A stretch of DNA of 47,702 bases, from positions 1 to 47,702 of the forward strand of contig JACRMN010000009.1 of NCBI GenBank assembly GCA_016214955.1. Reading direction: 5' to 3'. A program made the position numbers and the translations under genes. Below the pieces are notes generated by a model. That model did not search any database and had not been told where the DNA came from. It saw only the letters and a program-made list of their open reading frames with translations. Of this stretch, positions 32,424-45,615 are shown piece by piece (within the stretch, counting starts at the first letter, position 1; each line of letters starts with the position of its first letter). This DNA comes from Deltaproteobacteria bacterium (lineage in GTDB: Bacteria; Myxococcota; Myxococcia; Myxococcales; Anaeromyxobacteraceae).

Positions 32424-33251
32424 ATGAGACGGCTCGAAGGCAAGGTGGCGCTGGTCACCGGCGCGTCGTCGGGCATCGGGGCGGCCCTGGCGCGGGAGCT
32501 CTCGCGGCGCGGCGCGACGCTCGTCCTGCTGGCCCGGCGCGCCGACCGGATCGCTGCGCTCGGCGAGGAGCTGGGCGCGGCCCAGGGGCGCGCCATGGCC
32601 ATCCCGGCCGACGTGGCGCGCGACGGCGACCTGCCGCGGGCGGTGGCCGCGGCGCTGGAGCGCTTCGGGCGGCTCGACGTGGTGGTGGCCAACGCCGGAT
32701 TCGGCGTGGCGGGCCCTTTCGCCCGGCTCACCCTCGACGACTACCGCCGGCAGATGGAGACCAACGTCTTCGGCGTGCTCCGCACCGCCCAGGCCGCGCT
32801 GCCGGCGCTCCGGGCCTCGCGCGGAACGCTGGTGCTCATAGGCTCGGTGTCGGGCCACGTCTCGGCCCCCGGAAGCTCGCCCTACTCCATGAGCAAGTTC
32901 GCGGTGCGGGCGCTGGCCGAGGCGCTACGGGCCGAGCTCTGGCCGGAGGGCGTGGCCACGGTCCTGGTGAGCCCGGGCTTCGTGGAGAGCGAGATCCGCC
33001 GGGTGGACAACCAGGGGCGGCTGCGCGAGGGGGCGCGCGACGCCGTCCCCGCCTGGCTGCGGCTGCCTGCCGACGCCGCCGCCCGGCGCATCGCCCGGGC
33101 CATCCTGCGCCGCGACCGCGAGGTGGTCGTCACCCTGCACGGGAAGCTGCTCGTGCTGCTGGCGCGGCTCTGTCCGGGCCTGCTGGCCTGGGTGGGCCGG
33201 CGGGTGGCCGCCCGGCCGCCGCGCCCCCGGGAGGGGGCGCCGCGGAGCTGA
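32424..33251 (+). CDS. Short-chain dehydrogenase/reductase
   Basis: 275 residues. The cofactor motif is VALVTGASSGIGAALAREL (TGxxxGIG), NAG appears in VVVANAGFG, and the active-site Ser and Tyr-x-x-x-Lys are in LIGSVSGH and SPYSMSKFAVRAL. The position after strand two (LARRADR) favours NADP(H). The C-terminus has a hydrophobic patch (KLLVLLARLCPGLLAWVG), suggesting membrane association, as in some lipid- or steroid-acting SDRs. Substrate cannot be deduced. It converges with the hybrid kinase gene. Confidence 0.87.
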   Translation: MRRLEGKVALVTGASSGIGAALARELSRRGATLVLLARRADRIAALGEELGAAQGRAMAIPADVARDGDLPRAVAAALERFGRLDVVVANAGFGVAGPFARLTLDDYRRQMETNVFGVLRTAQAALPALRASRGTLVLIGSVSGHVSAPGSSPYSMSKFAVRALAEALRAELWPEGVATVLVSPGFVESEIRRVDNQGRLREGARDAVPAWLRLPADAAARRIARAILRRDREVVVTLHGKLLVLLARLCPGLLAWVGRRVAARPPRPREGAPRS

Positions 33252-33260
33252 GCCGCTCAC

Positions 33261-35903
33261 CTAGCCGGCGAAGGGCAGCTCGCGCTGCGGCCGGCGCCGC
33301 GGGACGCGGATGGTGAACTCGGTGCCCTGCCCGGGCGCGCTCTGGAGCTGGAGGGTTCCGCCCAGGCTCTGCACCACCCGCCGCGAGATGGTGAGTCCCA
33401 GGCCGGTGCCGCGCCCCGGCCCCTTGGTGGTGAAGAAGGGGGTGAAGAGCCGGGCCTGCACCTCGGGGTCGATGCCCGGGCCGTTGTCGCTGACGCGGAT
33501 CACCAGCTCGTCCCCGTCGCCGCTGCCCCGCACCCAGACCCGGCCGGTCTCCTCCGGCACCGCCTCGATGGCGTTCTGCACCAGGTTGGTGATCACCTGG
33601 TTCCACTCCTCCGGGACGCACTCCAGCGTGCCGTCGCCGGTGGCTTCCACCTGCACCTGCACCTTGCGCCCCGTGGCCGGCAGCACCACGTCCACCACGG
33701 TGCGCGCGGCCTCCCAGGCGTCGTGCGGGGCCAGCTGGCGCTGGTAGCCGGCGCGGCCGTAGCGTCCCATGAGCTCCACCGTCTGGCCGATGCGCTTCAG
33801 GCCCGAGTCGGCCACCGAGAGCAGCTCGCGCAGCCGGGTGCCGGCCCTCTCCAGGTCGGCCAGCTCGCCGGGCTGCAGCGGCCGCTCGCGGGCCGAGCCC
33901 ACCGTGGAGAGCGCCTGCTCCACGTGGAGCCGCACCCGGTGCAGGGAGTTCTTCACGTAGTTGAGCGGGTTGTTGATCTCGTGGGCCAGGCCGCCGGCCA
34001 CGATCTCCAGCGAGTCCATGCGCTGGGTGAGCACCATGTCGGCGGCCTGCTCCTCGGCCTGCACCAGCCGCCGGGCGGTGGTCACCAGCTCCTTGGGCGA
34101 GAAGGGCTTCACCAGGTAGGCGGAGACGCCGGTTTCCAGCCCCTTCACCCGGTCGTCGAGCTCGCCCCGGGCGGTGAGCATGATCACCGGGATCTGGCGG
34201 GTGCGCGGGTCCTCGCGGAGCAGCTTCACCAGCTCCAGGCCGTCCAGCTCCGGCATCATCAGGTCGGTGACCACCAGGTGGGGCCGCTCGCGCTGGATGA
34301 GCTCCAGCCCCTTCCTGCCGTCGAGGGCCGCCCGCACCTTGAACTGGCGCCGCAGCGTCATGTGGATGAGCTGGACGATGCGCGGGTTGTCCTCGACGAC
34401 CACCACGGTGTGGGGGCGGGCCTCCTCGTCGGTGTCCCGCTCCACCGCCCGCCGCTCGGCGGCCTCCTCGATGTCGAGCAGCCGGAAGTCGCGCCGCGCC
34501 GAGAGCCGCACCGCCCAGTCGAGGCCCGAGTCGCCGTCGGCCTTTACCGGCGCCTCCACCAGCACCTCGGGGCGCAGGTGCTGGCGGCCGCGCCGCAAGA
34601 GCACGGTGAAGCGGGCGCCGCGGAGGCCGTCGCTCCGGGCCTCGATGGTGCCGCCGTGGAGCTGCACGATCTCGCGGGCCAGGGCCAGGCCGATGCCGGC
34701 GCCGCCGTAGACGCGGGTGCCGGCCATGTCCACCTGGTAGAAGCGCTCGAAGAGCTTCTCCGCCTTCTCCGGCGGGAACCCCACGCCGTCGTCCTCCACC
34801 GTCACCGCCACCCACTCGCGGCGGTCGCCGAGCTTGACCTGCACCTGGCCGCCCGGGGGCGTGAACTTGATGGCGTTGGAGAGCAGGTTGACGAACACCC
34901 GCTCCAGCCGCTCCAGGTCGCAGGTCACCAGCGCCTCGGCCCGCTCCGAGAGGAAGGAGAGGGTGATGCCCTTGCGCTGCGCCAGCACCTGGGTCTGCTC
35001 GGTGAGGGCCGAGAGGTGCTCCACCAGGTCGTGCTCGCGGACCTGCAGCTGCAGCCGGCTCTCCTCCAGCCGGGAGAGGTCCAGCAGGTCGTTGATGAGC
35101 TTCAGGAGCTTCATGGCGCTGCGGAACATGGTCTGGAACGAGCTGCGCTGGGCGTCGGTGAAGCTGCCCATCTCGCCCTGCATGAGCAGCTCCAGCGGCG
35201 TGAGGATCATCGCCAGCGGGGTGCGCAGCTCGTGGGTCATGTTGGCGAAGAAGCGGCTCTTGAACTCGTCGAGCCGCTTCAGCTCGCTGTGCGCCTTCTC
35301 CAGGTTGGCGGTGGTCTGCTCCAGGCGGACGCGCTGCCCCAGCTGCTCGCGCTGGGTCCGGTAGGTCAGGGCCTGCCCCAGTGCCGCCACCAGGGCGGTG
35401 GCCGAGAGGAAGACCAGGTTGGAGAGGCCCTGCCCCGGGTTGGCGTAGGTCCCGGACGCCAGGTTCACCAGCAGGAACGAGGCAACGATGCCGATCTGGG
35501 CGGAGACCACGTAGGTCAGCGGCCACACGAACAGCAGGCCGGCGGCGAGGACGATCAGGGTCAGGCCGGCGTAGTAGGGCGAGGAGAGCCCGCCCATGTA
35601 GCTGGTCATGACGCTGATGCCGGTGGCCGTGAGCCAGGCCAGCGCCACGCCCAGCGGTTCGACCCAGCGATCGAGCGCCGGGCGGTGGACGAGCGGCAGC
35701 AGCAGCATCCCGGCCACCGCCACGCCCAGCCGCATGACCAGGAGGCTGGTGAGCGCCTGCGGCGGGGCCAGGAGCAGATCGAGGACGCCGAAGGCCGGGT
35801 AGAGCGTGCCCATGAGGATGAGCCCGACGCGCAGGCCGCGCCGGTTGCGCTCCAGCCGCCACCGCCGCCAGCGTTCCTCGAGCTCGTCCGGCGACGGCCC
35901 CAT
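33261..35903 (-). CDS. Membrane hybrid histidine kinase with two kinase cores around a receiver (PhcS/PhcR-like)
   Basis: 880 residues. Five to six membrane helices occupy residues 25-180 with little periplasmic sequence (ISVMTSYMGGLSSPYYAGLT), a layout suited to sensing a hydrophobic ligand within the membrane. Kinase core 1: His224 in FFANMTHELRTPL, N box NLLSNAIKFT, G2 GGAGIGLAL. Receiver: acidic pair VVEDN, Asp547 in VVTDLMMPELDG and Lys in LVKPF. Kinase core 2: His641 in GGLAHEINNPLNYV, N box NLVQNAIEAV and G2 GRGTGLGL. In Ralstonia, PhcS is a membrane kinase and PhcR is a receiver-kinase; this protein looks like both joined. It follows the PhcB-like gene by 3 bp. The equivalence is inferred from architecture and neighbourhood. 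Confidence 0.85.
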   Translation of the reverse strand: MGPSPDELEERWRRWRLERNRRGLRVGLILMGTLYPAFGVLDLLLAPPQALTSLLVMRLGVAVAGMLLLPLVHRPALDRWVEPLGVALAWLTATGISVMTSYMGGLSSPYYAGLTLIVLAAGLLFVWPLTYVVSAQIGIVASFLLVNLASGTYANPGQGLSNLVFLSATALVAALGQALTYRTQREQLGQRVRLEQTTANLEKAHSELKRLDEFKSRFFANMTHELRTPLAMILTPLELLMQGEMGSFTDAQRSSFQTMFRSAMKLLKLINDLLDLSRLEESRLQLQVREHDLVEHLSALTEQTQVLAQRKGITLSFLSERAEALVTCDLERLERVFVNLLSNAIKFTPPGGQVQVKLGDRREWVAVTVEDDGVGFPPEKAEKLFERFYQVDMAGTRVYGGAGIGLALAREIVQLHGGTIEARSDGLRGARFTVLLRRGRQHLRPEVLVEAPVKADGDSGLDWAVRLSARRDFRLLDIEEAAERRAVERDTDEEARPHTVVVVEDNPRIVQLIHMTLRRQFKVRAALDGRKGLELIQRERPHLVVTDLMMPELDGLELVKLLREDPRTRQIPVIMLTARGELDDRVKGLETGVSAYLVKPFSPKELVTTARRLVQAEEQAADMVLTQRMDSLEIVAGGLAHEINNPLNYVKNSLHRVRLHVEQALSTVGSARERPLQPGELADLERAGTRLRELLSVADSGLKRIGQTVELMGRYGRAGYQRQLAPHDAWEAARTVVDVVLPATGRKVQVQVEATGDGTLECVPEEWNQVITNLVQNAIEAVPEETGRVWVRGSGDGDELVIRVSDNGPGIDPEVQARLFTPFFTTKGPGRGTGLGLTISRRVVQSLGGTLQLQSAPGQGTEFTIRVPRRRPQRELPFAG

Positions 35904-35906
35904 CCC

Positions 35907-37514
35907 TCAGCCCAGCGACAGCTCGAGGAAGGGGTTGGCGCCGCTCTCCTCCTCGAGGATGCGGACCTGCGCTCCGGGGACCGCGCGGCGCCCGACCTCG
36001 AGCAGCTCCTCGCGCGACTTGTAGATCAGCGGCCACTCCAGGCCGTGCTCCAGGAGCCAGCGGGCGCGGTGGTCCACCATGTTGGCGATGAGCAGCCGGC
36101 CGTCGGGCCGGGCGGCGCGCGAGAGGTGGCGCGTCAGCACCGACGCGGTGCGCGGGGCCAGGTAGTCCACCAGGCCGCAGGAGTAGATGAGGTCGAACTT
36201 CCCGAACTCCTGGAAGAGGTTGGCGTCGCGCAGCAGGCGCTTGATGGAGTCGTGGAGGAAGGTGAGCTGCAGGCGGCCGCCGAAGCGCTCGTCGGAGACC
36301 GACTTGAGCCGCCGCCAGGCGTGGGCCAGGGCGTTGCGGTCCTGCTCGAAGAGCACCACCTCCAGCGGCACCGGCAGCTCGTCCAGGGCCTGGAAGAGCT
36401 CGTAGAGCTCCTGGGCCGGACCCGAGGCGATGGAGAGCACGCGCAGCGGCTGGGCGCGGCCGGCGTGGGTCTGGACCAGGGCCCGGAGCTGGCGGACCAC
36501 CAGGTCCTTGCGGTAGCGGACGGCGCGGGAGGAGATGGCCTCGCTGAATGCCAGGCCCACGGCGCGGGCGAAGAGCGTCCCGCCCTCGAAGAAGCGCTCG
36601 TAGATGAAGTTCATCACCTCGTAGTCGCCGGGATAGCCGAAGGGCTTGTGCCGGGCGCGGTGAAGGCCCGGCGAGAGCATCAGGAACTCGTCGAGCTGGC
36701 GCTGCGACCACTGGCGGCCCGCCGGGTTGGCGTGACCGCCCGGCAACTCGCGGACGGCGCTGTCGATCTCCTCGCTGAGCCGCACCACCTCGGGGACGAA
36801 GCTGGCCCGCAGCGAGCGGGCCATCATCGTCATCGGCGCGCTGCTCTCCTGCTGGAGCGAGTGCCAGGGGAGGCGACCCTCCAGCTCGGCGAGCTGGCTG
36901 CGGGCGTCCTCGAAGAGGAGCCGCAGCTCCGACACCCGCGCCTGGAAGCGCTCGCCACCGGCGACGCCCCAGCTGCGGTCCTTCACCCGCAGTGCCGAGC
37001 CCAGGTTCCCCCAGGCGCGCACGTCGCGGAGCTGGAGGATCTCGTCGATGTCGAGGAGGAAGTCGCCGAAGGAGAAGGCGACCACGGTGTGGTCCTCGCG
37101 CGGGCGCACCGATCCGGCCACCACCTCGCCGCAGAAGACCTCGTGCCCGTCGAAGCGCAGCGCGACCACCAGGCGCTGGCGCTTCTGGATGGGGACGTCG
37201 CGCGGCCAGGCGATGGCGGCGCCGTTCTGGGAGACGTCGAGGAGGGGGCACTCGCGGCGCTGTCCGGCCAGGGTCACCCGCACCGAGCCCACCAGCGGCG
37301 CCAGGTCCTCGGCGCTGTGGCGCTGGGGACGGAACTGGACGTTGCGCCCGTCGGCGCCGTCGAGCTCCTCGTAGGTGCGGACGCGAGGACGCGAGGGGAG
37401 GTGCGCCACCGACCCGCGTTCGGGCGCCGCCGCCGTCTCCTCCTCAGGCGCATGGGGCGGCTTGGGTGAAGTCTCCGCGTCGCCGCTGCAGTCCATCTGC
37501 TCACTGGCCTTCAT
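35907..37514 (-). CDS. PilZ domain fused to a PhcB-like SAM-dependent methyltransferase
   Basis: 535 residues. Residues 60-165 form a PilZ-like domain with the DxSxxG motif LLDVSQNGAAI; the RxxxR motif is not exact (FRPQRHSAE), so cyclic di-GMP binding is uncertain. The C-terminal part matches the family of Ralstonia PhcB, which makes 3-hydroxypalmitate methyl ester: HKPFGYPGDYEVMNFIYERF (residues 289-308), then GGTLFARAVGLAFSE, RAVRYRK, SAM motif I in VLSIASGPAQEL, FEQDRNAL and DLIYSCGLVDYL. It should methylate a carboxylic acid, possibly a fatty acid signal. The ATG overlaps the stop of the upstream REC-kinase gene by 4 bp, and the hybrid kinase follows 3 bp later, so the three form one operon. 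Substrate is inferred. Confidence 0.8.
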   Translation of the reverse strand: MKASEQMDCSGDAETSPKPPHAPEEETAAAPERGSVAHLPSRPRVRTYEELDGADGRNVQFRPQRHSAEDLAPLVGSVRVTLAGQRRECPLLDVSQNGAAIAWPRDVPIQKRQRLVVALRFDGHEVFCGEVVAGSVRPREDHTVVAFSFGDFLLDIDEILQLRDVRAWGNLGSALRVKDRSWGVAGGERFQARVSELRLLFEDARSQLAELEGRLPWHSLQQESSAPMTMMARSLRASFVPEVVRLSEEIDSAVRELPGGHANPAGRQWSQRQLDEFLMLSPGLHRARHKPFGYPGDYEVMNFIYERFFEGGTLFARAVGLAFSEAISSRAVRYRKDLVVRQLRALVQTHAGRAQPLRVLSIASGPAQELYELFQALDELPVPLEVVLFEQDRNALAHAWRRLKSVSDERFGGRLQLTFLHDSIKRLLRDANLFQEFGKFDLIYSCGLVDYLAPRTASVLTRHLSRAARPDGRLLIANMVDHRARWLLEHGLEWPLIYKSREELLEVGRRAVPGAQVRILEEESGANPFLELSLG

Positions 37515-38698
37515 CCCGCGCCTCCGTGTACGGCCCCCGCCGCCACCTCGCTCCCCAGGGGGAGGAGAATCTCGAATCGCGCCCCGCCGCCCGGCCGGTC
37601 GCCGGCGGCGATGCGGCCGCCGTGGGCGTCGACGATGAGGCGGGACATGTAGAGCCCCATGCCCAGCCCCTCGTCTCCCTTGCCGGAGACGAAGGGCTGG
37701 AAGAGCCGGGCCTTGAGCTCGGCGGAGACGCCGGGGCCGCGGTCCTCGACGGCCAGCTCCAGCTGCCCGCCGGCCAGCCGCGCCCGCACCACCACCTCGC
37801 CGTCGTCGGCGCTGGCCTGCAGGGCGTTGCGCACCAGGTTGAGCAGCACCTGCACCAGCTTCTGGCGGTCGGCTCGCAGCACCGGCAGGCCCGGCTCGAC
37901 CTCGGCCGAGACGCGGCGCCGGCGGAAGGTGAGATCCATGCGCGAGAGGGTCACCGCGTCCCGCACCACCGCCGCCGGATCGCAGAGGTCGGACCGCACC
38001 TCCAGCGCCCCCTGCCGCGAGTACTCCCGGAGCATCTGCAGGGTGCGGAGCAGGTTGTCGATGTGGTTGAGGCCGATCTCCAGGATCTGGCGCAGCCCCG
38101 GGGCCAGCTCCTTCTGGGCCAGCTCCCACTCGGCGGCCCGCAGCCCCACCATCACGTTGCGCAGGTCGTGGGCCACGCCCGATGAGAGCCGGCCGATGGA
38201 CCCCAGCCGTTCCAGGTGGAGCATGGCCTGCTGCTGGGCCTGCAGCTCCGAGAGCGACGCCGCCAGCTCGTCGCTGCGCCGGGCCAGCAGGGTCACCAGC
38301 CTGTCGATCGTGCGGCGCTGCCCGACGAACGCGCAGGCCTGCTCCAGCGCCTGGAGGATGTCGGCGGCCTCCCAGGGCTTGCGCAGGAAGCGGAAGGCAT
38401 GGGCCCGGTTGATGGCGGACTCCAGCGCCTGCATGTCGGCGTAGCCGGTGAGGACGATGCCGGCCACGTCGGGGTGGCGCTGGCGGACCGCCTCGAGCAG
38501 CTCCACGCCGGTCATCCCCGGCATGCGCTGATCGGCCACCACCACGTCGACCCGGATCTCCTCCAGCAGGCCCAGGGCCTCCGGCCCGGAGTACGCAGCG
38601 TGAACCTCCCACTGTTCCTCCAGGAGGTCGCGCAGGACGTGCACGTTGTTGGGCTCGTCGTCGACGAGGAGGACCGCGCCGGTGAGCGGATTGCCCAC
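37511..38698 (-). CDS. Receiver-histidine kinase (PhcQ/PhcR-like)
   Basis: About 395 residues from the GTG at 38698. An in-frame GTG at 38839 would add 47 residues, but a promoter-like sequence lies between the two, so the shorter form is favoured. The receiver has VLLVDDEPNNV, Asp56 in VVVADQRMPGMTG, LTGYAD and Lys in FLRKPWEAADI; the GYAD...KPW pattern is that of RpfG/PhcQ-type receivers. The kinase core has His177 in SSGVAHDLRNVMVGL, N box NLVRNALQAS, G1 DRGPGV and G2 EGLGMGL. It lacks membrane segments. It is the first gene of the PhcB-like operon and could relay or tune the signal from the membrane hybrid kinase. Confidence 0.8.
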   Translation of the reverse strand: MGNPLTGAVLLVDDEPNNVHVLRDLLEEQWEVHAAYSGPEALGLLEEIRVDVVVADQRMPGMTGVELLEAVRQRHPDVAGIVLTGYADMQALESAINRAHAFRFLRKPWEAADILQALEQACAFVGQRRTIDRLVTLLARRSDELAASLSELQAQQQAMLHLERLGSIGRLSSGVAHDLRNVMVGLRAAEWELAQKELAPGLRQILEIGLNHIDNLLRTLQMLREYSRQGALEVRSDLCDPAAVVRDAVTLSRMDLTFRRRRVSAEVEPGLPVLRADRQKLVQVLLNLVRNALQASADDGEVVVRARLAGGQLELAVEDRGPGVSAELKARLFQPFVSGKGDEGLGMGLYMSRLIVDAHGGRIAAGDRPGGGARFEILLPLGSEVAAGAVHGGAG

Positions 38699-39004
38699 GC
38701 CAGTCCGCGCCGCGAGCGCCGCGATCTGTTTCCGATCGTCCAGTCCCAGGACCCAATGAGGGGGTATCGTCCGTCCCAGTATAGACGGGTGCGACCAGCC
38801 GCCAAAGAGACCCGCTTCCGGATGCTCCAGAAAAACCACTTACCCAAGATGGTGCTGGCCCGTTTGGGGATCTCGGTCATATTCACCATCAGTTGATCAT
38901 GGCGGCAAACGGGCACACCCGGAGGATCTCGCCCGGACGGGGCGCATTGACGATCGGCCGTACGAAAACGGAAGATTCCCCGCTCACCCCATTTCGGAGG
39001 TCGG
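38699..39004. other. 306-bp divergent region between the signalling operon and the Liv operon
   Basis: It is clearly lower in G+C than the flanking genes, as expected for a region with two promoters. A sigma-70-like promoter for the reverse operon is listed separately at 38778-38805. On the forward strand, TTGACG (38947-38952) precedes livG, with no convincing -10. The livG ribosome-binding site GGAGG is at 38996-39000. Confidence 0.5.
38778..38805 (-). promoter_or_regulatory. Sigma-70-like promoter of the PhcB-like operon
   Basis: On the reverse strand, TTGGCG and TATACT are separated by 16 bp. TATACT matches the -10 consensus at five of six positions. It lies 80 bp upstream of the GTG at 38698 and inside the longer reading frame, which supports the downstream start. 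Confidence 0.45.
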
Positions 39005-39805
39005 ATGCGGCCCGAGGCCGTCGGAGGCGACGACCAGGACGACATCCTCGCGGTGGAGGGGCTCTCGCTGGGCTTCGGGGGCGTGCAGGCCCTGTCCGGC
39101 CTCTCCTTCACCGCGCGCAAGGGCGCCATCACCGGTATCATCGGGCCCAACGGCGCCGGCAAGACGAGCCTGCTCAACTGCGTGGCCGGCTTCTACCGGC
39201 CCCAGTCCGGCCGGATCGCCTTCGAGGGGAGCGACGTCACCCGCGTCCCGCCCGATCGGCGGCCGGCGCTGGGCATCGCCCGCACCTTCCAGAACATCGC
39301 CCTCTTCGAGGGGATGACGGTCCTCGACAACGTCAAGCTCGGGGCCCATGTGCACCTGCGCACCAACGTCTTCCAGGCGCTGGCCTTCACCCCGGCGGCG
39401 CGGCGCGAGGAGCGGGCCCTGCGCGAGGAGGTGGAGAAGGAGATCCTGGAGTTCCTGGAGATCGAGCACCTGCGGCGGCGCACCGTGGGCAGCCTGGCCT
39501 ACGGGCTCCAGAAGCGGGTCGAGCTGGCGCGGGCGCTGGCGGCCCGGCCCCGGCTCCTCCTCCTCGACGAGCCCATCGCCGGCATGAACGAGGAGGAGAC
39601 CGAGGACATGGCCCGCTTCATCCTCGACATCCAGGAGGAGCGGGGTGTCTCGGTGGTGCTCATCGAGCACGACATGGGGGTGGTCATGGACCTCTGCGAG
39701 AAGGTGGTGGTGCTCTCGTTCGGCCAGAAGATCGCCGAGGGGACGCCGGCCGAGATCCAGCAGCACCCCGAGGTCATCCGGGCCTACCTGGGGAAGAGCC
39801 ACTAG
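39005..39805 (+). CDS. livG: Branched-chain-type ABC transporter ATPase LivG
   Basis: 266 residues. Walker A is GPNGAGKTS in IIGPNGAGKTSLLNCV, the Q-loop region is GIARTFQNIALFEGMTVLDN, the signature is degenerate (SLAYGLQKRVELARAL, with AYG for SGG as common in LivG), and Walker B is LLLLDEPIAGMN. The family's C-terminal AEGTPAEIQQHPEVIRAYLG is intact. It forms one of two ATPases of a HAAT transporter with LivF. It begins an operon with GTG-started livH 2 bp later, and diverges from the PhcB-like signalling operon. Confidence 0.94.
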   Translation: MRPEAVGGDDQDDILAVEGLSLGFGGVQALSGLSFTARKGAITGIIGPNGAGKTSLLNCVAGFYRPQSGRIAFEGSDVTRVPPDRRPALGIARTFQNIALFEGMTVLDNVKLGAHVHLRTNVFQALAFTPAARREERALREEVEKEILEFLEIEHLRRRTVGSLAYGLQKRVELARALAARPRLLLLDEPIAGMNEEETEDMARFILDIQEERGVSVVLIEHDMGVVMDLCEKVVVLSFGQKIAEGTPAEIQQHPEVIRAYLGKSH

Positions 39806-39807
39806 CC

Positions 39808-40695
39808 GTGGATCTCCTGCTCCAGCTCCTGGCCAGCGGCGCCGTCACCGGCTGCATCTACGCCCTCATCGCCATCGGGTTCGTGGTGGTCTACAAGGCC
39901 ACCGGCGTCATCAACTTCGCCACCGGCGAGCTGATGATGCTGGGCTCCTTCTTCGCCTGGACGGCCATGACCGCGGCCCAGGTGCCGTTCGTGGCGGCGC
40001 TGCTGGTGGCGATCGCCGGCGCAGCGGCGGTGGGCGCGGTGGTGGAGCGGGTGGTGCTGCGGCCGCTGCTGGGCCAGCGGGCCATCTCGGTCATCATGGT
40101 GACCATCGGCCTCTCCTCCATCTTCAAGGGGCTGGCCCAGATCCTCTGGAGCGGCGAGTACCGCAGCTTCCCGCCCATCTGGCCGCGCCGCCCCATCACC
40201 CTGGGGCCCGTGCTCCTGCCGGCGCGCCAGGTCTACCCCTCGCTCATCGCCCTGGCCGCCATCCTGCTGCTGGCGCTCCTCTTCCGCTTCACCCGCACGG
40301 GCACCGCCATGCGAGCCACCGCCGCCGACCAGGCGACCGCCTTCGGCATGGGCATCGACATCCGCCGGATGTTCTCGCTCTCCTGGGTGCTGGCCGCGGT
40401 CAGCGCCGCCATCTCCGGCGTCGTCATCGGCACCATCGGGGGCATCAGCCCGCAGCTCGGCGCGGTGGGGTTGCGCATCTTCCCGGTGGTGATCCTGGGC
40501 GGGCTCGACTCCATCGGCGGCGCGCTGGTGGGCGGCATCGTCATGGGCATCCTCGAGAACCTGGCCGGCGGCTACCTGGATCCGCTCCTGCCCGGCGGCG
40601 GCGTCAAGGAGGTGGCCCCCTTCGTCGCCCTGGTGCTGATCCTGATGGTGCGGCCCTACGGACTCTTCGGCACCCGCGACGTGGAGCGGCTGTAG
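39808..40695 (+). CDS. livH: Branched-chain-type ABC transporter permease LivH
   Basis: 295 residues from a GTG 2 bp after the livG stop. About eight hydrophobic helices. Family motifs are GCIYALIAIGFVVVYKATGVINFATGELMMLG, abbreviated here as YALIAIGFVVVYKATGVINF and ATGELMMLG, and the transport loop ATAADQATAFGMGIDIRRMF, then GGLDSIGGALVGGIVMG and a C-terminal VRPYGLFGTRDVERL. It pairs with LivM to form the membrane channel. Confidence 0.94.
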   Translation: MDLLLQLLASGAVTGCIYALIAIGFVVVYKATGVINFATGELMMLGSFFAWTAMTAAQVPFVAALLVAIAGAAAVGAVVERVVLRPLLGQRAISVIMVTIGLSSIFKGLAQILWSGEYRSFPPIWPRRPITLGPVLLPARQVYPSLIALAAILLLALLFRFTRTGTAMRATAADQATAFGMGIDIRRMFSLSWVLAAVSAAISGVVIGTIGGISPQLGAVGLRIFPVVILGGLDSIGGALVGGIVMGILENLAGGYLDPLLPGGGVKEVAPFVALVLILMVRPYGLFGTRDVERL

Positions 40696-40697
40696 CG

Positions 40698-41741
40698 ATG
40701 CGCATCGGCGACTACCAGGAGAGCTACGCCGCCGACGAGGCGCTCTTCCGCACCCCCACCCAGCGGGTCTGGCTGATGGCGGCCGGGGCGGCGGCGGTGG
40801 TCTTCCCCTTCCTGGCCGGCGACTACCTGCTCTACCTCGCCAACCTGGTGGGGCTGCTGGCCATCGGGGCGCTGGGGCTCAACATCCTCACCGGCTTCAC
40901 CGGCCAGATCTCGCTGGGCCACGCCGGCTTCATGGGGGTGGGGGCCTACACGGTGGCCATCGCCGCCACCCGCCTCTCGCTGCCCTTCTGGATCGCGGTG
41001 CCGCTGGGCGGCGCCGCGGCCTGCCTGGCCGGCGCGGTGGTGGGGGTGCCTTCGCTCCGCATCAAGGGGCTCTACCTGGCCATCTCCACCTTGGCGGCCC
41101 AGGTGATCTTCGAGTGGGTCTTCGGCAACTGGACCGACCTCACCGGCGGGATCCGGGGCATCAACGTGGCCCCGGCCACCTTCCTGGGCTTCGCCTTCGA
41201 CAGCGACAGGCGCATCTACTTCCTGATCCACGGCCTGGCCGCGCTCCACGCCTACGGCGCCGCCAACCTCTTCCGCACCAGGGTGGGGCGGGCCTTCGTG
41301 GCGGTGCGCGACCGCGACCTCTCGGCCGAGCTCATGGGGGTCAACCTCTTCCGCACCAAGATCCTGGCCTTCATGGTGTCGAGCTACTACGCCGGCATCG
41401 CCGGGGGGATGTGGGTCTACTTCACCAAGGTGGTGACGCCCGAGAACTTCCCGCTCTCGCTCTCCATCCAGTTCCTGGCGATGATCATCGTCGGCGGGCT
41501 GGGGAGCGTGCAGGGGACGCTGCTGGGCACGGTCTTCATCACCCTGGTGCCCGAGGGGCTGAAGGTGCTCACCCAGGCGGTCCGGCCCTTCGCGCCCGAC
41601 GCCATGAGCTACCTGTTCCCGCTGCGGGACATCCTCTTCGGCGCCATGATCGTGGCCTTCCTGATCTTCGAGCCCCACGGGCTCGCCGAGGTGTGGCGTC
41701 GCATCCGCAGGTTCTTCGCGCTGTGGCCGTTCCCGAAGTGA
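40698..41741 (+). CDS. livM: Branched-chain-type ABC transporter permease LivM
   Basis: 347 residues, starting at an ATG 2 bp after livH. Motifs are NILTGFTGQISLGHAGFMGVGAYT (family signature GQISLGHAGFMGVGAY), LRIKGLYLAISTLA, AFVAVRDRDLSAELMGVNLFRTK (the coupling loop to the ATPases) and GGLGSVQGTLLG. The segment FFALWPFPK at the end is typical of LivM proteins from acid- or aromatic-associated clusters. About eight to ten hydrophobic helices. Confidence 0.94.
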   Translation: MRIGDYQESYAADEALFRTPTQRVWLMAAGAAAVVFPFLAGDYLLYLANLVGLLAIGALGLNILTGFTGQISLGHAGFMGVGAYTVAIAATRLSLPFWIAVPLGGAAACLAGAVVGVPSLRIKGLYLAISTLAAQVIFEWVFGNWTDLTGGIRGINVAPATFLGFAFDSDRRIYFLIHGLAALHAYGAANLFRTRVGRAFVAVRDRDLSAELMGVNLFRTKILAFMVSSYYAGIAGGMWVYFTKVVTPENFPLSLSIQFLAMIIVGGLGSVQGTLLGTVFITLVPEGLKVLTQAVRPFAPDAMSYLFPLRDILFGAMIVAFLIFEPHGLAEVWRRIRRFFALWPFPK

Positions 41742-41766
41742 TCCACCCCACGCAGGAGGAGAGAGC

Positions 41767-42945
41767 ATGAGCCAGAACCGCATGAAGTGCCTGGTGGCCG
41801 CGCTGCTGGCCACCGCAGCGCTCGGGGCCCGGGCCGCCGACGACGAGATCAAGGTGGGCGCCTGCCAGCCCATCACCGGCCGCTTCGCCTTCGCCGGCGT
41901 CAACATCAACGCCGGCCTGCAGGACTACCTCAACTACGCCAACGAGCAGAAGCTGGTGAAGGGGAAGAAGTTCACCTACTTCTACGAGGACTCGGGCTAC
42001 GACACCGACAAGGCGGTGGCCACCTTCAAGAAGATCATGGCCCAGCACTCGCCGGTGATCATGTACGGAGAGTCCACCGGCCTGGGGAAGGCCATCGCCC
42101 CCGAGCTCAACAGCCGCTACAAGGTGCTCTACGCCTCGGCCTCCTTCTCCTCGGAGCTGGCCAACCCCGCCACCCACCCCTACTCGTTCCTCTCGGGGCC
42201 GTCCTACGCCGACATGTTCGGCGTGCTGCTCGAGTACATCGCCAAGAACCCCAAGGGGAAGGGCAAGCCCAAGGTGGCCTTCTTCTACAGCGACACCGAG
42301 TTCGGCAAGGACCCCATCCCCTGGGCCCGGAAGCGGGCCGCCGAGCTGGGCGTCGAGGTGGCCGCCGAGATCGTGACCAAGGTGGGCGCCGTCGACGTGA
42401 CCACCGAGGTGCTGGCCCTCAAGAAGGCCCAGCCCGACTACGTCATCTTCCAGGGCTACGTGCTGGCCCCCATCCCCGAGGTGATCCGCGGCTCCCGCGA
42501 CCACGGGCTCCAGACCACCTTCATGGGCACCTTCTGGTCGGTGGACAAGACCATCATCGACAAGCTCGGGCCCGACGCCGAGGGCTACATGGGCGTCAAC
42601 CCCTACGCCTACTGGTACGAGGACGCGCCCGGCGTGGTGGCCATGCGCAAGTACAACGAGAAGGTGCACCCCGCCGACGCCAAGTACCGGCCCAACAGCT
42701 ACATCCAGGGCTGGTTCACCGGCATGGTCTACGTCGAGGCGGCCCGCCGGGTGGTGGCGGCCGGCAAGCCGGTCACCGGCGACAACCTCAAGGACGCGCT
42801 GGCCGCCATCCAGAACTGGGACACCGGCGGCCTCACCGGCAAGGGCGGCTTCGTCTCCAACAAGTACCCGGTCGGGCGCGTCTACCGCGCCAACGTGCAG
42901 AAGGGCATCTTCGAGCCGGCCTCCGACTGGATCACCGTGAAGTGA
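41767..42945 (+). CDS. livK: Branched-chain-type ABC transporter solute-binding protein LivK
   Basis: 392 residues with AGGAGGAG before the ATG. The signal peptide (MKCLVAALLATAALGARA) is followed by the mature EIKVGACQPITGRFAFAGVN, matching type I periplasmic binding proteins. KVAFFYSDTEFGKDPIPWAR and a C-terminal GFVSNKYPVGRVYRANVQKG fit the HAAT-associated group found with acyl-CoA ligases rather than true leucine-binding proteins. The ligand is not predictable; with the neighbouring ligase, an aliphatic or aromatic carboxylate is plausible. Confidence 0.9.
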   Translation: MSQNRMKCLVAALLATAALGARAADDEIKVGACQPITGRFAFAGVNINAGLQDYLNYANEQKLVKGKKFTYFYEDSGYDTDKAVATFKKIMAQHSPVIMYGESTGLGKAIAPELNSRYKVLYASASFSSELANPATHPYSFLSGPSYADMFGVLLEYIAKNPKGKGKPKVAFFYSDTEFGKDPIPWARKRAAELGVEVAAEIVTKVGAVDVTTEVLALKKAQPDYVIFQGYVLAPIPEVIRGSRDHGLQTTFMGTFWSVDKTIIDKLGPDAEGYMGVNPYAYWYEDAPGVVAMRKYNEKVHPADAKYRPNSYIQGWFTGMVYVEAARRVVAAGKPVTGDNLKDALAAIQNWDTGGLTGKGGFVSNKYPVGRVYRANVQKGIFEPASDWITVK

Positions 42946-42955
42946 CCGGCCGCCG

Positions 42956-43810
42956 ATGACAGCGCCCGCGCCGCCGCTGCTCGCCGTCAACAACCTGGAG
43001 GTCGTGTACCACCACAGCGTCCAGGTGCTGAAGGGGCTGTCGCTCGCCGTCCCCGAGGGGCGGATCGTGGCCCTCCTCGGCTCCAACGGCGCGGGCAAGA
43101 CGACGGCGCTCAAGGCCATCTCCGGGCTCCTGCCGCTGGAGAACGGCGCCATCGAGGCCGGCGCCGTCACCTACCGCGGCCAGGACCTGGCCGGCCTCCT
43201 CCCGCACCAGATCGCCCGCCGCGGCATCTTCCAGGTGCGGGAGGGGCGCCACGTCTTCGAGGACCTGACGGTGGAGGAGAACCTGCTCTGCGCCACCTAC
43301 GCGCGCCCCTCGACTCCGGCCCGCTGGCGCCGGAACGCGCCCGGGGCGACCGGGCGCGGCGGCAAGGCGGTGGAGCTGGACCGGGTCTACGACTACTTCC
43401 CCCGGCTCCGGGAGCGGCGCGGCGGCCTGGGGGGCTACCTCTCCGGCGGCGAGCAGCAGATGCTGGCCATCGGGCGGGCGCTGGTGGCCGGGCCCGACCT
43501 CATGCTCCTCGACGAGCCCTCGCTGGGCCTGTCGCCGCTGCTGGTGGAGGAGATCTTCGCCATCGTCGAGCGCATCAACCGCGAGCAGGGCACCACCATC
43601 CTGCTGGTGGAGCAGAACGCCCACATGGCGCTCCAGCTCGCCTCCCACGGCTACATCATGGAGAACGGCAAGGTGGTGCTCGACGGGCCGGTGGAGCGGC
43701 TGCGCCAGGACCGCGACGTGCAGGAGTTCTACCTGGGACGGCGCGGCGGCCAGGCCAAGAGCTACCGCGAGGTGAAGCACTACAAGCGGAGGAAGCGTTG
43801 GCTCTCCTAG
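42956..43810 (+). CDS. livF: Branched-chain-type ABC transporter ATPase LivF
   Basis: 284 residues, 10 bp after livK. Walker A LGSNGAGKTTALKAI, Q-loop RRGIFQVREGRHVFEDLTVEEN (with the R-x-x-Q-V-x-E-G-R form), signature LSGGEQQMLAIGRAL, Walker B MLLDEPSLGLSP and switch VEQNAH. The C-terminal extension SYREVKHYKRRKRWLS is a hallmark of LivF proteins encoded next to AMP-dependent acyl-CoA ligases. An insert of about 30 residues (PARWRRNAPGATGRGG) lies between Q-loop and signature. Its end overlaps the ligase start by 13 bp. Confidence 0.94.
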   Translation: MTAPAPPLLAVNNLEVVYHHSVQVLKGLSLAVPEGRIVALLGSNGAGKTTALKAISGLLPLENGAIEAGAVTYRGQDLAGLLPHQIARRGIFQVREGRHVFEDLTVEENLLCATYARPSTPARWRRNAPGATGRGGKAVELDRVYDYFPRLRERRGGLGGYLSGGEQQMLAIGRALVAGPDLMLLDEPSLGLSPLLVEEIFAIVERINREQGTTILLVEQNAHMALQLASHGYIMENGKVVLDGPVERLRQDRDVQEFYLGRRGGQAKSYREVKHYKRRKRWLS

Positions 43811-45615
43811 GCGACACGCTCCCCCGGCTCCTGCGCGAGCGGGCCCGCCAGTCGCCGCAGGACGTGGCCCTGCGCGAGAAGGAGTGGGGCATCTGGCAGC
43901 GCGTCACCTGGGAGGACTACCTGGGCCACGTTCGCCGCACCGCCCTGGGCCTCACCAGCCTGGGGCTCCGGCGCGGCGACAAGGTGGCCATCCTCTCGGA
44001 GAACTGCCGCGAGTGGCTCTACGCCGAGCTGGGTGCCATGAGCGCCTCGGCGGTGGGCGTGGGGGTCTACCCCACCAGCCCGGCCCAGGAGGTGAAGTAC
44101 GTGGTGGCCCACTCCGAGGCCACCTTCGTGATCTGCGAGGACCAGGAGCAGGCCGACAAGATCCTGGAGGTGGGGGCCGAGCTGCCGCTGGTGCGCCACG
44201 TGGTGGTGGCCGACATGAAGGGGCTGCGCCGCTACCGCGACCCCCGCCTCCTCTCCTTCGAGGAGCTGGAGCGGCGGGGAGCCGAGCACGACCGCGCCCA
44301 CCCCGGCCTCTTCGACGAGATGGTCGACGCCACCCGCGCCGGCGACCTGGCCTTCCTCATCTACACCTCGGGCACCACCGGCTTCCCCAAGGGGGCGATG
44401 ATCAGCCACCGCAACATCCTGGCCCAGGCGCGCGCCGCCACCGAGGCCATCGGGGTGCGGGCCGGCGACTCGGTGGTGAGCTACCTGCCGCTGTGCCACG
44501 TGGCCGAGCAGATCTTCTCGGTCTACCTGCCGCTCTGGCGCGGCCTGACGGTGAACTTCGCCGAGAGCATCCGCACCATCCAGGAGGACCTGCGCGAGAT
44601 CGGGCCCAGCGTGTTCCTGGGCGTGCCGCGCATCTGGGAGAAGCTGCAGGCCTCCATCCAGGTGAAGATCCAGGAGGCGGCCCCCTGGCGCCGGGCGCTC
44701 TTCGACTGGGCCCTGCGGCGAGGCGGGCGCGCCTCCGAGGCGCGCCTGGCGGGGCGGCCGCCGGGGCCGGGGGAGCGGCTCGGCTTCGCGCTGGCCTGGC
44801 TGCTGGTGCTGCGGGCGCTGCAGAACCACGTGGGCCTGCGCCGCGCGCGGCTCACCTTCAGCGCCGCCGCCGCCATCTCCCCCGAGGTGCTGCGCTTCTT
44901 CCACGCCATCGGCATCCCGGTGCGCGAGGGGTACGGGATGACGGAGTGCACCGGCTTCTCCTTCGTGCAGCGGGCCGGCGAGATCCGGCTGGGCACGGTG
45001 GGCCGGCCCATCCCCGGGCTCGAGTACCGCCTGGCCGGCGACGGCGAGCTCCTCAAGCGCGGCGAGGTGGTCTTCCAGGGCTACTTCAAGAACCCCGAGG
45101 CCAGCGCCGAGACGCTGCGCGACGGCTGGCTCTGCTCCGGCGACGTCGCCGAGCAGGACCCCGACGGCCAGCTCCGCATCGTGGATCGCAAGAAGGCGAT
45201 CTTCGTCACCGCCGGCGGCAAGAACGTGTCGCCCTCGCTCGTCGAGAACGCGCTCAAGGTCTCGCCCTACGTGAAGGAGGCGGTGGTGGTGGGCGACGGC
45301 GAGCGCTTCCTGGCGGCGCTGGTCCAGATCGACTTCGAGAACGTGGGGCAGTGGGCCACCGAGCGGCGGCTGGCCTACACCAACTTCAGGAGCCTGACCC
45401 TGCTGCCCGAGGTCCAGGCGCTGGTGGCCGCCGAGGTGGAGAAGGCCAACGCCGGGCTGGCGCCGGTGGAGCAGGTGCGCACCTTCCGGCTCCTCGACAA
45501 GGAGCTGGACCACGACGACGACGAGGTCACCGCCACCATGAAGGTGCGGCGCAAGACCATCTACAAGAAGTTCGCGCCGCTCATCGCCGACATCTACGGG
45601 AAGGCGCAGGGGTAG
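43798..45615 (+). CDS. Long-chain fatty-acid/AMP-dependent acyl-CoA synthetase (FadD15-type)
   Basis: 605 residues. I take the TTG at 43798, directly preceded by GGAGGAAGCG and overlapping livF by 13 bp; no ATG fits. Adenylation motifs: LIYTSGTTGFPKGAMISHRN (P-loop), VREGYGMTECTG, GWLCSGDVAEQDPDG and the hinge DRKKAIFVTAGGKNVSP. The large insert between the P-loop and YGMTE, with VFLGVPRIWEKLQASI, is typical of long-chain FadD15/ACSL-like enzymes. It should form acyl-AMP and then acyl-CoA from a carboxylic acid brought in by the adjacent Liv transporter. Chain length is not certain. Confidence 0.9.
   Translation: MALLGDTLPRLLRERARQSPQDVALREKEWGIWQRVTWEDYLGHVRRTALGLTSLGLRRGDKVAILSENCREWLYAELGAMSASAVGVGVYPTSPAQEVKYVVAHSEATFVICEDQEQADKILEVGAELPLVRHVVVADMKGLRRYRDPRLLSFEELERRGAEHDRAHPGLFDEMVDATRAGDLAFLIYTSGTTGFPKGAMISHRNILAQARAATEAIGVRAGDSVVSYLPLCHVAEQIFSVYLPLWRGLTVNFAESIRTIQEDLREIGPSVFLGVPRIWEKLQASIQVKIQEAAPWRRALFDWALRRGGRASEARLAGRPPGPGERLGFALAWLLVLRALQNHVGLRRARLTFSAAAAISPEVLRFFHAIGIPVREGYGMTECTGFSFVQRAGEIRLGTVGRPIPGLEYRLAGDGELLKRGEVVFQGYFKNPEASAETLRDGWLCSGDVAEQDPDGQLRIVDRKKAIFVTAGGKNVSPSLVENALKVSPYVKEAVVVGDGERFLAALVQIDFENVGQWATERRLAYTNFRSLTLLPEVQALVAAEVEKANAGLAPVEQVRTFRLLDKELDHDDDEVTATMKVRRKTIYKKFAPLIADIYGKAQG

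Follow-up and report, generated by a model that had tools for sequence, protein, structure and literature searches.

A putative PhcB/PhcS-type signalling unit conserved in Myxococcota pairs a methyltransferase with a six-helix membrane sensor

Results

The stretch of DNA that we analysed (47,702 nucleotides, hereafter the window) is an entire contig from a myxobacterial genome of 5.3 Mb. Three closely coupled genes lie on its minus strand (Table 1): the first two overlap by 4 bp (ATGA, 37511-37514), and a gap of only 3 bp (35904-35906), just before the ATG of the sensor kinase, separates the second from the third. An earlier reading made from the sequence alone (the sequence-only reading) had described the three genes as coupled in this way, and their coordinates and order hold.

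Table 1. Features of the three-gene unit in the window
Feature	Position	Strand	Basis
Gene 1, soluble receiver and histidine kinase (REC-HK)	37511-38839	-	Pfam, motifs
Gene 2, PilZ-linker-class I SAM methyltransferase, 535 aa	35907-37514	-	Pfam, AF2 model, identity to phcBSRQ-like methyltransferase
Gene 2, PilZ domain, residues 72-149	37068-37301	-	Pfam, motif scan
Gene 2, methyltransferase domain, residues ~260-535	35910-36737	-	Sequence signature
Gene 3, six-helix membrane sensor, HK, receiver and HK, 880 aa	33261-35903	-	Pfam, AF2
Gene 3, membrane sensor domain, residues 1-183	35355-35903	-	Conserved motif, AF2, profile

The product of gene 1 contains a Response_reg domain (residues 56-165) and a HATPase domain (324-428) and keeps the phospho-histidine H224 together with the receiver and ATP-binding motifs, an architecture that is, judged by its domains, PhcR-like. 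Alignments with most orthologues begin only at about residue 31-41, so that the start given as 38839 is probably placed too far upstream and the true one probably lies nearer 38700. In the gene 3 product, Pfam places two HisKA/HATPase units C-terminal to the six-helix membrane region, with a receiver (residues 500-609) between them. No DNA-binding regulator occurs within the three-gene unit.

A search of 195 Myxococcota genomes recovered the receiver-kinase, methyltransferase and sensor, arranged as in the window, in 17 other genomes, belonging to two myxobacterial families, with about 47-69% identity; relatives of the window methyltransferase itself occur in its own and the sister family at about 47-62% identity. 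In these 17 genomes, barring contig ends, the receiver-kinase lies directly before the methyltransferase and the sensor directly after it. On these sequence comparisons, the three-gene arrangement is conserved far beyond chance, and the linkage of the methyltransferase to both kinases, whose absence from relatives the sequence-only reading had named as grounds for abandoning its proposal, is retained. There are no flanking genes beside the unit that are common to both families, the shared ones being confined to a few close relatives. Since no neighbour in the window is kept beside the unit in relatives, the unit consists of three genes; an SDR gene (32424-33251) and the upstream aminotransferase were considered as members and rejected on these grounds. 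The plus-strand genes divergent from the unit (39005-45615) form an ABC transporter cluster for branched-chain amino acids that includes a long-chain acyl-CoA synthetase; the adjacency of this cluster to the unit is likewise not conserved in relatives.

The unit is unevenly distributed: within the family of the window itself, several complete genomes lack it. One genome (G041) carries two copies of the methyltransferase, one with a sensor and one without, and the genome that contains the window encodes a second methyltransferase of the superfamily, short and divergent, with no adjoining sensor (L069:8040-9134; G000:C26). In one draft genome, the methyltransferase gene is seemingly split by a frameshift at about residue 300-313 (L022:1495-3039; G020), which may be a sequencing error.

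The AF2 model of the sensor (residues 1-225, pLDDT 93) consists of six helices joined by very short loops, with no sizeable outside domain, and the bundle runs on into the signalling helix as in receptors of the adenylyl-cyclase type, although this is a predicted and not a solved structure. Its best solved counterparts are the membrane domains of adenylyl cyclases, headed by AC9 (Z 17.1, rmsd 2.9 over 181 residues), with further matches to AC5 (Z 15), AC8 and Rv1625c (Z 9.2), and to ImcA (Z 16.6, rmsd 6.1). The mammalian cyclases and ImcA score at least 13, as against 9.5 or less for unrelated helical proteins; Rv1625c alone does not rise above them. As modelled, then, the sensor has its fold in common with the membrane regions of class III adenylyl cyclases (AC1-9, Rv1625c) and of ImcA, with Z from 17 to 9 across the set. 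At the sequence level, the match of the sensor profile to human adenylyl cyclase 5 (E=0.43) was given no evidential weight. The membrane domains of adenylyl cyclases were recently reported to be receptors that answer fatty acids and anandamide (PMC11606603).

The sensors share the motif LGG..S.YYAGL.L, of which YYAGL is strongly conserved across proteins with unrelated outputs. The GG..S.YYAGL segment occupies the loop preceding helix 4 of the model, and together with D42, P47, N162 and F165 it should lie on one face of the membrane, by topology the outer one.

For the methyltransferase (AF2 model, pLDDT 90), the prediction comprises an N-terminal domain built entirely of beta strands, followed by a helical linker and a class I fold, the last carrying the signature KPxGYxGD...GPAxEL...GLxDYL. 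Its best solved match is 3ocj (Z 20.1, rmsd 2.8 over 248). No NCBIfam model matches the window methyltransferase, and searches of PDB sequences found no relative, their nucleoporin matches having the look of coiled-coil noise.

Signalling through the Phc system is known from plant-associated Burkholderiaceae: the PhcBSRQ quorum-sensing systems of Ralstonia, Cupriavidus and Paraburkholderia use the fatty-acid esters methyl 3-hydroxypalmitate (3-OH PAME) and methyl 3-hydroxymyristate (3-OH MAME) as signals, and they control a LysR regulator of the PhcA type, a protein family so widespread that its presence in a genome would say little. As a stand-in for Ralstonia PhcB and PhcS, we used an operon on the Paraburkholderia graminis plasmid NZ_CP024936, which encodes a methyltransferase, a membrane kinase and two receivers, i.e., the phcBSRQ order. 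The residues published for Ralstonia, namely arginine 22 of PhcB, arginine 154 of PhcQ and the phosphorylated histidine 230 of PhcS (PMC6989110, PMC11960443), correspond to R22, R157 and H233 of the Paraburkholderia proteins. This operon is a good but imperfect yardstick, because its third gene encodes a lone receiver, unlike PhcR of Ralstonia, which is a receiver-kinase within an operon ordered phcB-phcS-phcR-phcQ (PMC8578825).

Against this Paraburkholderia proxy, the window methyltransferase is of the PhcB type by homology, with 32% identity over 276 aa (E=1e-39), and a methyltransferase profile built without the Paraburkholderia proteins matches the proxy enzyme at E=1.7e-86. Assignment to PhcS calls for similarity in the N-terminal sensory region and not merely in the kinase (PMC7567580), and here the homology, again relative to the proxy, does extend to that region: a sensor profile, also built without Paraburkholderia proteins, matches the proxy membrane domain at E=1e-25. 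The same profile matches the membrane region of a kinase from the cyanobacterium Pseudanabaena, encoded beside a similar methyltransferase, at E=2.4e-12. (These profile E-values come from a small database, the open frames of two dozen loci.) To name the sensor after the Pfam family MASE8 was considered and dropped, as the Paraburkholderia PhcS-like protein matches this family weakly and below the cut-off (E=0.0044; 17.6 vs 26.2 bits) and the window sensor does not match it.

The sequence-only reading, which had recognised a PhcB-like methyltransferase and a PhcS-like membrane kinase, is borne out on both counts, and its broader statement that the parts of Phc occur here in other fusions stands for the PhcB, PhcS and PhcR-like parts, gene 1 having the make-up of a soluble receiver-kinase corresponding to PhcR; it fails for PhcQ, since a separate PhcQ receiver gene is absent from the unit and none is conserved beside it. 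To call the locus a rearranged Phc locus was an overstatement. The gene order is receiver-kinase, methyltransferase, sensor (R-B-S), the sensor is fused to a receiver and a second kinase, and the methyltransferase, unlike that of PhcBSRQ, has a recognisable PilZ domain and belongs to a separate clade. The methyltransferase tree, to which that reading had looked for a decision, gives full support to the kinase-linked clade of the window (16 rows) and to a second, SpoIIE-linked clade (18 rows); it did not recover a sister grouping of the myxobacterial clades with the Paraburkholderia protein, the deep links being without resolution. A further methyltransferase (L072:3333-4478; G193) shares 61% identity with the Phc-like enzyme of Paraburkholderia and adjoins an apparent DinB-type polymerase gene; it lacks the N-terminal domain and is unaccompanied by phcSRQ.

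The pairing of methyltransferase and sensor reaches well beyond the three-gene unit. More distant methyltransferases of Myxococcota also precede a protein whose membrane domain is the same but whose output differs: most have SpoIIE-type phosphatases, while L050 has a class III nucleotide cyclase and L043 a kinase-receiver-kinase. A sensor-profile search of the 195 genomes returned 46 matches of at least 140 bits, three of which lie at a contig edge; among the 43 that could be assessed, 39 follow directly behind a methyltransferase gene on their own strand and four are unpaired. (The seed alignment of this profile was drawn from sensors adjoining methyltransferases and somewhat favours paired ones; the search itself was unrestricted.) Conversely, 40 of 43 full-length methyltransferases (>400 bits) adjoin a sensor. 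The shorter enzymes of the superfamily that lack the N-terminal domain mostly occur without one, and the fold alone therefore does not imply signalling. Pairwise distances of methyltransferases and sensors from 32 loci correlate at 0.94, a value reached in none of 2000 permutations, which may reflect plain joint inheritance. On this comparison of loci, the conserved core is a methyltransferase plus a sensor with interchangeable outputs, a feature that, like the PilZ domain at the N-terminus of gene 2, had escaped the sequence-only reading.

Several of these loci are of interest in their own right. The largest group comprises pairs of a methyltransferase and a six-helix SpoIIE phosphatase distributed across Myxococcota (L040-L057), an output not known from Phc. 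In L050:6835-9747 (G054:C73), the sole cyclase version found in the phylum search, the methyltransferase is followed within a few bases by a gene in which the same six-helix sensor is joined, as in adenylyl cyclases, to a class III nucleotide cyclase that appears intact. One six-helix SpoIIE sensor without an adjoining methyltransferase (L077:5281-7434; G040) is possibly an eavesdropper on the signal of others. A distant relative of the methyltransferase on a Deinococcus plasmid (CP029776; L101:3392-6750) is part of a gene run that includes a fatty acid desaturase.

The near-constant pairing would also fit an enzyme and its substrate, and we considered that the methyltransferase might act on a protein, for example the sensor or a partner, in the manner of CheR, which methylates chemoreceptors, and so set sensitivity rather than make a ligand. 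The SAM-binding part of the enzyme does resemble CheR weakly (E=0.078), but at 12.8 bits the Pfam match falls far below the cut-off of 27. Moreover, the cytosolic parts of the paired sensors (kinase, SpoIIE, cyclase) are unrelated, leaving only the membrane domain as a common substrate, and the phcBSRQ precedent is one of small-molecule chemistry. Methylation of a protein therefore strikes us as unlikely.

Another role for the unit is suggested by the N-terminal domain of the methyltransferase. The unit could chiefly answer an internal second messenger, with c-di-GMP bound by the PilZ domain controlling the enzyme and the membrane domain serving only as an anchor. In favour of such control, which is possible from the sequence, the PilZ domain exceeds the Pfam cut-off, if barely (23.6 vs 22.5 bits), and its DxSxxG motif (D-V-S-Q-N-G) is kept in nearly the whole methyltransferase clade in our motif scan. 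In addition, on three rhizobiales plasmids (L098:3483-6765, L100:3502-6717 and L099) a GGDEF-EAL protein is encoded divergently from a related methyltransferase, and the sensor profile finds a weak match in the membrane region of that protein (E=6e-7 to 4e-4). However, the other half of the canonical c-di-GMP motif, RxxxR before the first strand, was not found, nearly the whole clade having FRPxR instead; the SpoIIE-linked and Phc-like relatives keep only a degenerate version; and the strong conservation of YYAGL across unrelated outputs argues for the sensing of a ligand. We regard this as the least probable of the alternatives, and quite improbable.

Discussion

The most economical reading of the locus is that of a signal synthase and its receptor, and it is the one that we favour: the three genes would form a self-contained unit of the PhcB/PhcS type, in which a methylated, lipophilic signal produced by the methyltransferase is read by the membrane sensor, a proposal that we consider somewhat better than evenly supported. 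According to this model, the product of gene 2, most likely a (hydroxy) fatty acid methyl ester, would partition into the membrane and be bound there by the six-helix domain of the gene 3 protein, whose kinase-receiver-kinase portion, together with the soluble receiver-kinase from gene 1, would relay the information onward. That the product of the methyltransferase is the ligand of the sensor is likely; the purpose of the unit would be the sensing of cell density, and the PilZ domain would serve to tune the methyltransferase.

The chemical nature of the signal is a separate question. That it is a fatty-acid ester is plausible by analogy with Phc, from the lipid-receptor fold of the sensor and, weakly, from the desaturase neighbour in Deinococcus. 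The sensor might instead read a methylated small molecule of another kind (aromatic, keto acid or polyketide type), given that natural-product O- and C-methyltransferases (SgvM, MfnG) are among the solved structures that resemble the enzyme. Such resemblance is general among class I methyltransferases, however, and the whole-model TM-scores are merely about 0.3-0.37; the sensor has no water-exposed binding domain and, as modelled, the fold of a lipid receptor; and both the PhcB precedent and the fatty acid desaturase of the Deinococcus gene run point to lipids. We thus hold a signal other than a fatty-acid ester to be rather unlikely, though somewhat less so than methylation of a protein.

The unit of the window and PhcBSRQ both place a methyltransferase directly before a six-helix membrane histidine kinase with a homologous sensor and include a PhcR-type receiver-kinase. 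By this analogy, the unit of the window most likely works like Phc, as a cousin of the Ralstonia system, yet is not a member of phcBSRQ, because its gene order differs and PhcQ is missing; the idea advanced in the sequence-only reading was largely right in kind. There is also a likeness of description to the alpha-hydroxyketone systems CqsA/CqsS and LqsA/LqsS, which combine a lipophilic signal (as proposed here) with a six-helix membrane kinase without an outside domain, and of which the Vibrio CqsS sensor is able to drive a cyclase (PMC4821796). In the window, unlike these systems, the gene beside the sensor encodes a methyltransferase and not a PLP-dependent synthase. CqsA and LqsA are themselves PLP enzymes.

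We found no report of this enzyme-sensor pair in myxobacteria in the literature searched. The pair spans Myxococcota, leaves traces in a cyanobacterium and in rhizobia, and is joined to outputs that Phc lacks; of these findings, the more interesting is that a single enzyme-sensor pair serves several different outputs. It raises the possibility, which we advance tentatively and with less confidence than the model for the unit itself, of a modular kind of lipid signalling in which a methylated lipid made by a methyltransferase of the PhcB superfamily is read by a six-helix receptor of the adenylyl-cyclase type whose outputs may be a kinase, a SpoIIE phosphatase, a cyclase or perhaps a GGDEF-EAL protein.

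The natural ligands of the membrane domains of adenylyl cyclases were, to our knowledge, long unknown, and we know of no synthase gene alongside these domains or that of ImcA, whereas nearly every sensor described here has a candidate synthase adjoining it. If the modular reading is true, the ligand so far missing for a cyclase membrane domain comes from a neighbouring enzyme. Because the fold of the sensor is, as predicted, that of the adenylyl-cyclase membrane domains, the cyclase of L050, situated beside the enzyme presumed to make its ligand, bears on this question and makes it directly testable.
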